Assembly (NCBI GenBank): GCA_027484165.1 | Contig: JAIXWH010000146.1 | Span: forward strand, 1-40,582 | Length of the DNA: 40,582 bases | From: Chitinophagaceae bacterium | GTDB lineage: Bacteria > Bacteroidota > Bacteroidia > Chitinophagales > Chitinophagaceae | Direction of reading: 5' to 3' | Shown: one piece after another, positions 38,040 through 40,582 of the stretch | How the letters are laid out: the number at the start of each line of letters is the position of its first letter | Position numbering within the stretch: the stretch's first letter is position 1 | Made by a program: the position numbers and the translations under genes | The notes under the pieces: generated by a model | Told to the model about the DNA's origin: nothing | The model's input: only the letters and a program-made list of their open reading frames with translations | The model's database searches: none

Positions 38040-40582
38040 ATGTACAACTGTTTTAAAAATTTATTTTCTTGCTTAACATTTGTTTTTTGCCTAACTATTT
38101 TAAGTTCAAAAACTTTAGGACAAGGATCTAAAACTTTCATTTCTGGCTCCTATATTGTTGATATGGGTCAACATTCAGGCACATTAGCAACTGATAAAGC
38201 TAAAGAGCTCACTCCTTGGGGCATGATTTACGACCTATTAAAAAACTATAATGTACCGGTATACGTTGTTATAAATGCAAACAAAACAAAAGATGGTATC
38301 GATTTTAATTATAATGGTATCAATTACAAAGGGGGAACTTTCGTAATTGATAAACAAAATATATCGACTGCCGTATCTGCTAGAATTACTTATTGGAACA
38401 ACCAAGGAATGGTTGGAACTTATACAAATTCTAATCTTACTTTAAACACTACTTTTCGTTACACAGTTGTGCCAACATGGACTTTAGATAGAGATAATTC
38501 CAAACTAGTTACTCCTTACTTTACAAATGCAAAAATTCCAACTACAGCATATAATACTTTATTGCCCTCTCAATTGAGTGCTTGTAATGATATTTTCGTT
38601 ATGCCCCATGCAGATCCTACATGGGCAGTTCATGGAAATTTATTCAATTGGAATTTACAATACAAAGGAGCTATTTGGTTAGGTTGTCATGCAGGAAGTG
38701 CTTTACACAATACATACAACCCTGCTAACATCAGTCAACAAATGAATTTCTTGACAACAAAAACTTTAACTGCTGGTACAAATATTACATTACCTTCTGC
38801 AAACTCAACTAATTACTCTCAGAATTCACTACAAATATGGGACAATCATTCAGATCCAACAGCTCCTTATACTACATGTAATGGTAGCATTGCGAGTGGT
38901 TCAATAGCAAATGGAGCTGATCCAGTTGCTCAATATATTGGCACAACTGATGCCTCTCATAATAATGGTTCTGAAAGAAGTTATGTTCCGGCAAAAAATC
39001 AAACTTGGCTTCCTTCAACCAAAATAATTTGCTATGATGCTTCATCTCCAAATGTACCCTCCATTTCTAATGGACCTGACGTTTTAATTGCATACGGCAG
39101 AGCTTTTGGAGATTCAAATAGAGGACTTGTGATGATGGAATCCGGACATGATCTAAATAAAGGAACTACTGGAGATGTAGCAGCTCAAAGAGCTTTCTGG
39201 AATTGGAGTTTCTTAGCTGCCCAAGACAAAGCAATAAAAATCAATAGTTTGTCTGGCTTACCTATAAATAGCATTGTTCTATCTAGTGGAACTTATAATT
39301 TATCTTTAAATTATAGTACAGCTGGTTCAGCAAATTCTAATCTTACTTTTACTTGGAGTTGTATACAAACTAACAACAGCTTAAGCTTTGGCACATTTAC
39401 ACCAAATGGCAATAGCAATTCATTCAATACAACTTTTTCTCCTACAATTGTAACCAGTCCAACAGATGTAACAATTCAAGTTGTGGTTACAGATGGTTGC
39501 GGACGTCAATCATTTGAAAGTTTTCCTCTAACTATTGTACCAAATGTAGTAACTATATCCGGTAAGGTATGGAATGATACCAATAGAAGTGCAAACAATT
39601 CATTTAATAACATTTATACTACAGGTGAGCAAGGAACAAATGCAAATAATAGTTTGTTTGCTTATTGTTTAGATCAAAATGGATTCGTTATCGCAAAGAG
39701 CGCAATTTCTTCAAATGGTGATTATAGTTTGAGTAACATACCTTCAATGACCAATGGACTCTCTCTAATTTTAAGCACTGTTAATGTTTCAATTGGTACC
39801 TATTCTCCAACTGCAATAATAAATAGTATTGGATGGATTAACACAACCCCATTAATCAGATCTTCAATAAATACACTTGCTGTTGCTCTAACAAATATGG
39901 ATTGGGGTGTTGATGCATTCCCGATAGCTAATAATGATATTTTTGCTCCTGATCAAGATACTCCTTACAATGGCAACGTGTCTTTAAATGACTCTCTAAG
40001 TGCAAATAATGGAAACATTTTCAGTTTAGTTAGTGGCCCTTCTCATGGCACCATAACTTTTAACACTAATGGCACTTTCATTTATACACCTGCTCCAGGA
40101 TTTACTGATATCGATACTTTCTACTACAGTTTATGCGACGCAGACAATGACTGCAGCACTGCTATGGTTAGATTGATTGTTCAAGCTGGTGGAACGACTC
40201 CTATCACTTTAACTTCTTTCAATGCAAGATTAGCTAACAATGAAACTGCTGTGTTAACATGGAATGCTCAATCTGAAATCAATGCCAATCGTTATGAGGT
40301 TGAAAGAAGCGAAAATGCAATCAGTTTCTCCAACAGAGGAAATGTAGCTGCAATTGGATCTCCAACTAGAAGTCAAGATTATATTTACAATGACGCATTA
40401 AATACAAATTCATTCGTTGTTTACTATCGATTGAAAATGGTTGACAATGATGGATCATATAAGTATTCAAATATTGTCGCTCTAAAGCTAAAAGATGAAG
40501 GAACCTCACTCAACACTTATCCAAATCCATTTGCATCTAACATTAAAATCGAAATTGTTAGCCAATTAGAAGAAATTGGACA
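38040..40582 (+). CDS. Large secreted protein of unknown function with T9SS sorting domain (3' end outside window)
   Basis: The frame is open from an ATG at 38040 to the window edge, 847 codons. A signal peptide ends near residue 27 (KTLGQ). Residues about 30-400 form a domain I do not recognise, with LTPWGMIYDLLKNYNVPVYVVINANK, PHADPTWAVHG (H190), GAIWLGCHAGS (C216) and GLVMMESGHD (E367, H370). Ig/PKD-like (about 405-505) and carboxypeptidase-regulatory-like (about 510-635) regions follow. Residues about 640-720 are a cadherin-like Ig domain (PHGTITFNTNGTFIYTP-type). After a TLTSF-AR-N-AVLTWNAQSE linker, a T9SS type A sorting domain begins at TYPNPF (about residue 825). It is exported by type IX secretion; activity is unknown. 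Confidence 0.82.
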   Translation, partial: MYNCFKNLFSCLTFVFCLTILSSKTLGQGSKTFISGSYIVDMGQHSGTLATDKAKELTPWGMIYDLLKNYNVPVYVVINANKTKDGIDFNYNGINYKGGTFVIDKQNISTAVSARITYWNNQGMVGTYTNSNLTLNTTFRYTVVPTWTLDRDNSKLVTPYFTNAKIPTTAYNTLLPSQLSACNDIFVMPHADPTWAVHGNLFNWNLQYKGAIWLGCHAGSALHNTYNPANISQQMNFLTTKTLTAGTNITLPSANSTNYSQNSLQIWDNHSDPTAPYTTCNGSIASGSIANGADPVAQYIGTTDASHNNGSERSYVPAKNQTWLPSTKIICYDASSPNVPSISNGPDVLIAYGRAFGDSNRGLVMMESGHDLNKGTTGDVAAQRAFWNWSFLAAQDKAIKINSLSGLPINSIVLSSGTYNLSLNYSTAGSANSNLTFTWSCIQTNNSLSFGTFTPNGNSNSFNTTFSPTIVTSPTDVTIQVVVTDGCGRQSFESFPLTIVPNVVTISGKVWNDTNRSANNSFNNIYTTGEQGTNANNSLFAYCLDQNGFVIAKSAISSNGDYSLSNIPSMTNGLSLILSTVNVSIGTYSPTAIINSIGWINTTPLIRSSINTLAVALTNMDWGVDAFPIANNDIFAPDQDTPYNGNVSLNDSLSANNGNIFSLVSGPSHGTITFNTNGTFIYTPAPGFTDIDTFYYSLCDADNDCSTAMVRLIVQAGGTTPITLTSFNARLANNETAVLTWNAQSEINANRYEVERSENAISFSNRGNVAAIGSPTRSQDYIYNDALNTNSFVVYYRLKMVDNDGSYKYSNIVALKLKDEGTSLNTYPNPFASNIKIEIVSQLEEIG

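Follow-up and report, generated by a model that had tools for sequence, protein, structure and literature searches.

A predicted GATase/ThuA-like domain with a candidate Cys-His-His site in probable Bacteroidota surface proteins

The window analysed here is a stretch of 40,582 nucleotides from a Chitinophagaceae bacterium, and its last gene, cut by the right-hand edge, raises the question of what an apparently exported protein does with an N-terminal region that resembles no nameable family. A sequence-only reading had proposed a secreted GATase-like or ThuA-like hydrolase with a Cys-His site around C216, and this proposal was followed up by family searches, structure prediction and analysis of residue conservation.

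Gene and domain architecture

The gene and the parts of its product are as follows.

38040..40582, + strand: gene for a T9SS-type multi-domain surface protein, of which the window holds 847 aa before the contig ends
38040..38123, + strand: signal-peptide-like N-terminus, residues 1-28, by eye on the translation
38127..38468, + strand: predicted N-terminal ferredoxin-like subdomain, residues 30-143
38466..39236, + strand: predicted GATase/ThuA-like core, residues 143-399
39252..39539, + strand: Ig-like module (about residues 405-500) that contains D485-x-C487-G-R489
39921..40172, + strand: Big_9 bacterial Ig domain, residues 628-711 (PF17963, E 6.5e-15)
40518..40582, + strand: start of a T9SS type A sorting domain, truncated where the window stops

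The open reading frame at 38040-40582 (+) stays open up to the final base of the window, where contig C75 of a 158-contig assembly likewise ends. The window's final 119 bases (40464-40582) are identical, in frame, to the end of contig C113, which adds 57 residues and a stop codon to give a full protein of about 904 aa. Contig C113 also holds a second T9SS-like protein gene, the last 649 matched bases of which are 86% identical to the window gene, and continuation of the window gene onto C113 through the exact end overlap is therefore probable but not proven. The 3' similarity between the two T9SS-like genes is a recent duplication or conversion of the end comprising Big_9 and the sorting domain.

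Pfam matches on the window protein comprised only Big_9 and cadherin-like domains, at about residues 624-714. The Ig-like module (about 405-500) had no Pfam match; its residues W439, G451, F453, D485, C487 and R489 were conserved at 90% or above in 45 proteins. On the overlapping C113 piece the T9SS type A sorting domain model TIGR04183 scored over its cut-off (E 1.2e-10), an assignment that depends on the 119-base overlap. The secretion that had been proposed thus agrees with a signal-peptide-like N-terminus and with a sorting domain on the probable C113 continuation, and judged by these signals the protein is probably exported to the cell surface via T9SS.

In 76 of 80 loci the domain under study (residues 26-405) begins no more than 120 residues into the ORF, and the D-x-C-G-[RTK] motif at the end of the Ig-like module follows within 160 aa of it in 55 of the 78 loci with enough sequence. 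Among 45 chosen proteins, the window protein included, the domain partners were SprB repeats (28), Por_Secre_tail (19), OmpA (1) and CHU_C (1); this set consists mostly of closed ORFs, with several long ones left out. A short protein of Salegentibacter agarivorans (L096, 4899-6533) carries the domain with an OmpA-type C-terminus and with neither repeats nor a sorting domain, suggesting that the domain may also work in the periplasm.

Family and distribution

Residues 30-400 are covered by no Pfam, NCBIfam or PDB sequence family, in agreement with the earlier statement that they match no nameable family. A scan of a species-level genome collection returned 206 pattern stretches of which 194 were relatives, so that at least 194 loci carry the domain. 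Eighty of these relatives were kept as alignment A2 (81 sequences with the window). No convincing Pfam match was found in any of the 80 A2 members or in 10 members of a second subfamily described below, and no convincing NCBIfam match in any of the 80. PDB sequence searches gave nothing, or a single chance-level match (E 0.81), for the first subfamily and only chance-level thioredoxins and others for the second; PADLOC returned nothing and the best PHROGs match had an E of 0.029. Although it is present at 194 or more loci, the domain falls outside every family model found here. The best reading is that the N-terminal 370 residues represent an undescribed family in which a ferredoxin-like subdomain is followed by a GATase/ThuA-like core.

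The domain was present in 10 of 59 genomes, its own genome counted. Searched with the A2 profile, 34 of 298 genomes of the same order gave matches at E<=0.01, some of them weak, and a sample of 395 genomes over the phylum gave one, the window's own. Titles of the 80 kept relatives name Bacteroidota taxa, except three without a phylum and one contig of 5.8 kb (L043) binned as Candidatus Nitrotoga, a proteobacterium, for which mis-binning is more likely than transfer. Viral contigs yielded 21 pattern stretches and no relatives.

The second, distant subfamily (10 members aligned, 27 unique matches) cross-matches the first by profile, for example with an E of 1.8e-26 across nearly the full length, and a search with one of its proteins in 296 genomes of the phylum found nothing. 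One subfamily-1 copy, in genome G046 (C87; L010, L015, L017), is split over two frames, reflecting a frameshift in either the gene or the assembly. No conserved partner was detected in the gene neighbourhoods, where the largest cluster (27 loci) was driven by repeats. A very large repeat-rich exported protein is often encoded directly downstream on the same strand (for example L047 7560-11081, L058 4892-8407, L083 7548-11054).

Predicted fold

An AlphaFold2 model built from 80 sequences was confident (pLDDT 95.3, pTM 0.94). Foldseek matches to the PDB were weak (best E 0.0091), in a list rich in GATase-like chains, and on VIA realignment 237 of 1000 chains reached Z>=8. The 50 chains shown had Z values of 10.4-13.3, mostly over model residues 118-374, corresponding to residues 143-399 of the protein. 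They include the ThuA-like protein 4jqs, PdxT, HisH and GMP synthetase as well as non-amidotransferase GATase-like domains of GH42, Agd3, NDST1 and a levan SGBP; going by their titles and in part by general background on these proteins, we take all 50 to belong to one fold class. The model therefore supports a class I glutamine-amidotransferase-like (GATase/ThuA-like) fold for residues 143-399, the fold that had been suspected from sequence. When modelled alone, the N-terminal 119 residues (pLDDT 91.8) appear ferredoxin-like by their strand order; this subdomain had no telling structural match, the best VIA hit, to UreE (Z 6.4), possibly reflecting just a common arrangement. Viral structures in BFVD gave one unnamed match under 0.001, with low TM.

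Predicted secondary structure places C216 (domain residue 191) directly after the core strand 186-190, at the opening of helix 191-198, as expected of the nucleophile elbow that had been proposed for it. H190 (domain residue 165) comes after strand 160-163, and H370 (domain residue 345) falls in the stretch that separates strand 338-342 from the last helix, 352-372. As we read the model, rather than from alignment output, C216, H190 and H370 would stand at the places where HisH-type proteins have their Cys, PGxG strand and His, respectively.

Conservation of the candidate site

The codons concerned are listed below.

38583..38585, + strand: C182, invariant, kept where C216 is lost
38607..38609, + strand: H190, proposed site residue, N in three members of one clade
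38685..38687, + strand: C216, proposed nucleophile at the elbow, S in the same three
39138..39140, + strand: E367, named in the sequence-only reading, not conserved
39147..39149, + strand: H370, proposed site residue, placed like the His of GATases, N/D/N in the three

The motifs named in that reading, PHADPTWAVHG (H190, H198), GAIWLGCHAGS (C216) and ESGH (E367, H370), were found where it had placed them. In the window sequence and its 80 relatives C216, H190, H370, C182, K82, D88, Q298 and E312 were each present in 81/81, with H190 and C182 favoured by construction because one of the two scan patterns contains C182...PHA; C216 and H370 are in neither pattern. The whole-genome profile searches were carried out without the C182...PHA pattern. 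For C216, H190 and H370 the conservation lies far beyond what chance would give. In a wider set of subfamily 1 (108 sequences examined), C216 was found in 105/105, H190 in 104/104 and H370 in 104/104 of the sequences with a letter at that position, and none of the close homologues had lost C216. E367 was rejected as a site residue, with E in only 52/81. The earlier interpretation is thus partly supported: three of its four named residues, H190, C216 and H370, proved invariant and the fourth did not, leaving a Cys-His-His site without E367.

The same residues recur in subfamily 2, in which the elbow is mostly GGNFLAQC, the first His follows a Pro and the last His lies in GGH or GNH. A joint alignment of both subfamilies comprised the 128 sequences longer than 300 aa out of 135 unique matches. 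Outside one clade, 14 columns were at least 98% conserved in 125 sequences, and H190, C216 and H370 were invariant (125/125) across the two distant subfamilies. The exception is a subfamily-2 clade of three sequences from the same genus, L199 (G520), L200 (G544) and L204 (G046), with support 98/97 and open frames, in which exactly these three of the 14 columns had changed (H>N, C>S and H>N/D) while the other 11 were kept. If three of 14 columns changed at random the chance of this set would be 1 in 364; the co-loss is one evolutionary event. Change as a set is what a shared site predicts and points to one functional Cys-His-His site, giving substance to the Cys-His site first proposed. At the level of sequence the C>S and H>N substitutions are those of a dead thiol enzyme, and the clade would represent either a pseudo-enzyme that has been maintained or a copy that serves some other role.

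Three readings other than catalysis were weighed against these data. The first is structural, with C182 and C216 joined in a disulfide and the histidines in a structural role. Both cysteines are invariant, in 46 of 81 sequences they are the only ones, and the protein is probably exported, all of which would suit such a bond. However, C182 precedes its strand and C216 follows its own, which in a parallel sheet would put them at opposite ends and make a bond between them unlikely, and C182, the sole other invariant Cys, is retained in 3/3 sequences of the clade where C216 is Ser. The C182 end is moreover already marked by a separate covarying pair, extra cysteines at alignment columns 156 and 183 that occur together in 16/16 of the 81 sequences with either and never alone, and that likely form a disulfide there. 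A C182-C216 disulfide is accordingly regarded as highly improbable.

A Cys with two His is a usual set of metal ligands, and a metal site made of C216, H190 and H370 predicts the same joint change, as ligands would be lost together no less than catalytic residues. There is a precedent in dimethylformamidase, where Fe3+ is held in a ThuA/GATase-like core with an essential His nearby (excerpts of PMC7686228), and one distant relative has a sub-threshold match to PF20254 (E 0.031) just before the elbow. Against this, C216 occupies the very elbow at which proteins of this fold carry the nucleophile, and the dimethylformamidase ligands are Tyr, Tyr and Glu, unlike Cys-His-His. A metal site is considered rather unlikely.

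The domain might instead be a glycan-binding module, an adhesive head of the surface protein comparable to CBM87 of Agd3 and to the levan SGBP domain, both extracellular and of the same fold (excerpts of PMC7229062 and PMC7618045) and both among the VIA matches (6nwz, Z 11.4; 8aa2, Z 12.6). The host proteins carry adhesin-like repeats, and W147, W195, W204, W213 and W323 are near-invariant in the 81 sequences. However, in the excerpted account of Agd3 the Cys-His-Glu triad is absent and surface aromatics are described instead (PMC7229062), whereas in the present family that end of the domain has an invariant Cys and two invariant His, which vanish as a set. Glycan binding as the role of the domain is likewise considered rather unlikely. 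For the core as a whole we lean, with some caution, towards a working cysteine active site with catalysis by C216; metal binding and glycan binding, each with a precedent in this fold, are its leading rivals.

Proposed mechanism

In a cysteine enzyme of this kind C216, at the nucleophile elbow and activated by H370 at the GATase His position, would attack an amide or ester carbonyl. H190, at the position of the first P-G-x-G strand Gly in GATases, would stand in for the canonical Glu and complete the site. The enzyme, a hydrolase or acyltransferase, would find its substrate, a peptide or matrix polymer, outside the cell. Computation supports the fold, by prediction and structural comparison, and shows the conservation and the joint loss; we infer the nearness of the three residues, the nucleophilic chemistry, the roles of the two histidines and the substrate, and likewise the hydrolase function suggested for the window domain. 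Counting against the cysteine-enzyme reading, position 372 (H370+2) is variable and lacks the canonical Glu, with I, L, H, F, Y and A the six commonest residues in the 81 sequences and Glu not among them. The single-event nature of the co-loss also counts against it, as do the missing profile similarity to ThuA or HisH, although the control pair ThuA-HisH fails too, and the glycan binding of published extracellular relatives of the fold (PMC7229062, PMC7618045).

The family probably comprises extracellular GATase-fold modules that are cysteine hydrolases or acyltransferases. The fuller proposal, of a new extracellular enzyme family heading long Bacteroidota surface proteins, in which the amidotransferase fold is rewired from Cys-His-Glu to Cys-His-His and acts on matrix polymers or partner proteins, with the dead-copy clade kept as a pseudo-enzyme, is put forward tentatively, its chances falling a little short of even. 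If true, an extracellular thiol enzyme in a GATase-like fold would be a new activity for such surface proteins, and the three-residue site together with a natural clade devoid of it makes the question directly testable by mutation.

Comparison with known systems

No described T9SS or extracellular catalytic GATase-like domain was recognised in the open-access literature searched, which does not prove absence, and the extracellular uses of the fold found in print bind glycans, as far as the excerpted papers go. According to such excerpts, the N-terminal domain of Agd3 (CBM87) resembles 4JQS, lacks a Cys-His-Glu triad and binds polysaccharide (PMC7229062), the SGBP domain that binds levan resembles ThuA-like 1T0B (PMC7618045), and one domain of NDST1, Rossmann-like and non-catalytic, is similar to the one in Agd3 (PMC10864358). 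CBM87 and the levan SGBP C-terminal domain are therefore, like the window domain, extracellular and GATase/ThuA-like; they are known glycan binders, whereas the window family has an invariant Cys-His-His.

ThuA-like proteins (PF06283; PDB 4jqs, 1t0b) have the same fold, with 4jqs the top VIA hit (Z 13.3 over 206 residues, rmsd 3.3, 8% identity). PF06283 matched neither the window domain nor any of the 80 A2 members at E<=1, and 22 fetched ThuA sequences have His or another residue, never Cys, at the elbow (GIHAAS type), where the window family has Cys. An hhalign comparison of the family profile with ThuA and HisH gave no similarity, as did the control pair ThuA-HisH. The family is assigned neither to ThuA nor to the canonical GATases. 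BPL_N, considered as a Cys-bearing comparison, was present in 1 of 99 genomes, which is not enough for that purpose.

Domain III of the dimethylformamidase large subunit (PF20254) shares the ThuA/GATase-like core and uses it for amide hydrolysis (excerpts of PMC7686228), with its iron held by Tyr/Tyr/Glu where the window family has Cys-His-His. In one of 10 subfamily-2 members the DMFA2_C model (PF20254) scored 14.2 bits, below its cut-off of 27, and it matched none in A2. Class I GATases (HisH, PdxT/SNO, GMP synthetase) share the fold (Z 10.4-12.8), a Cys after the elbow strand and a His before the last helix. Unlike them, the window family has no Glu at H+2 and a His replacing the PGxG glycine, and it carries an extra N-terminal subdomain and is probably extracellular.
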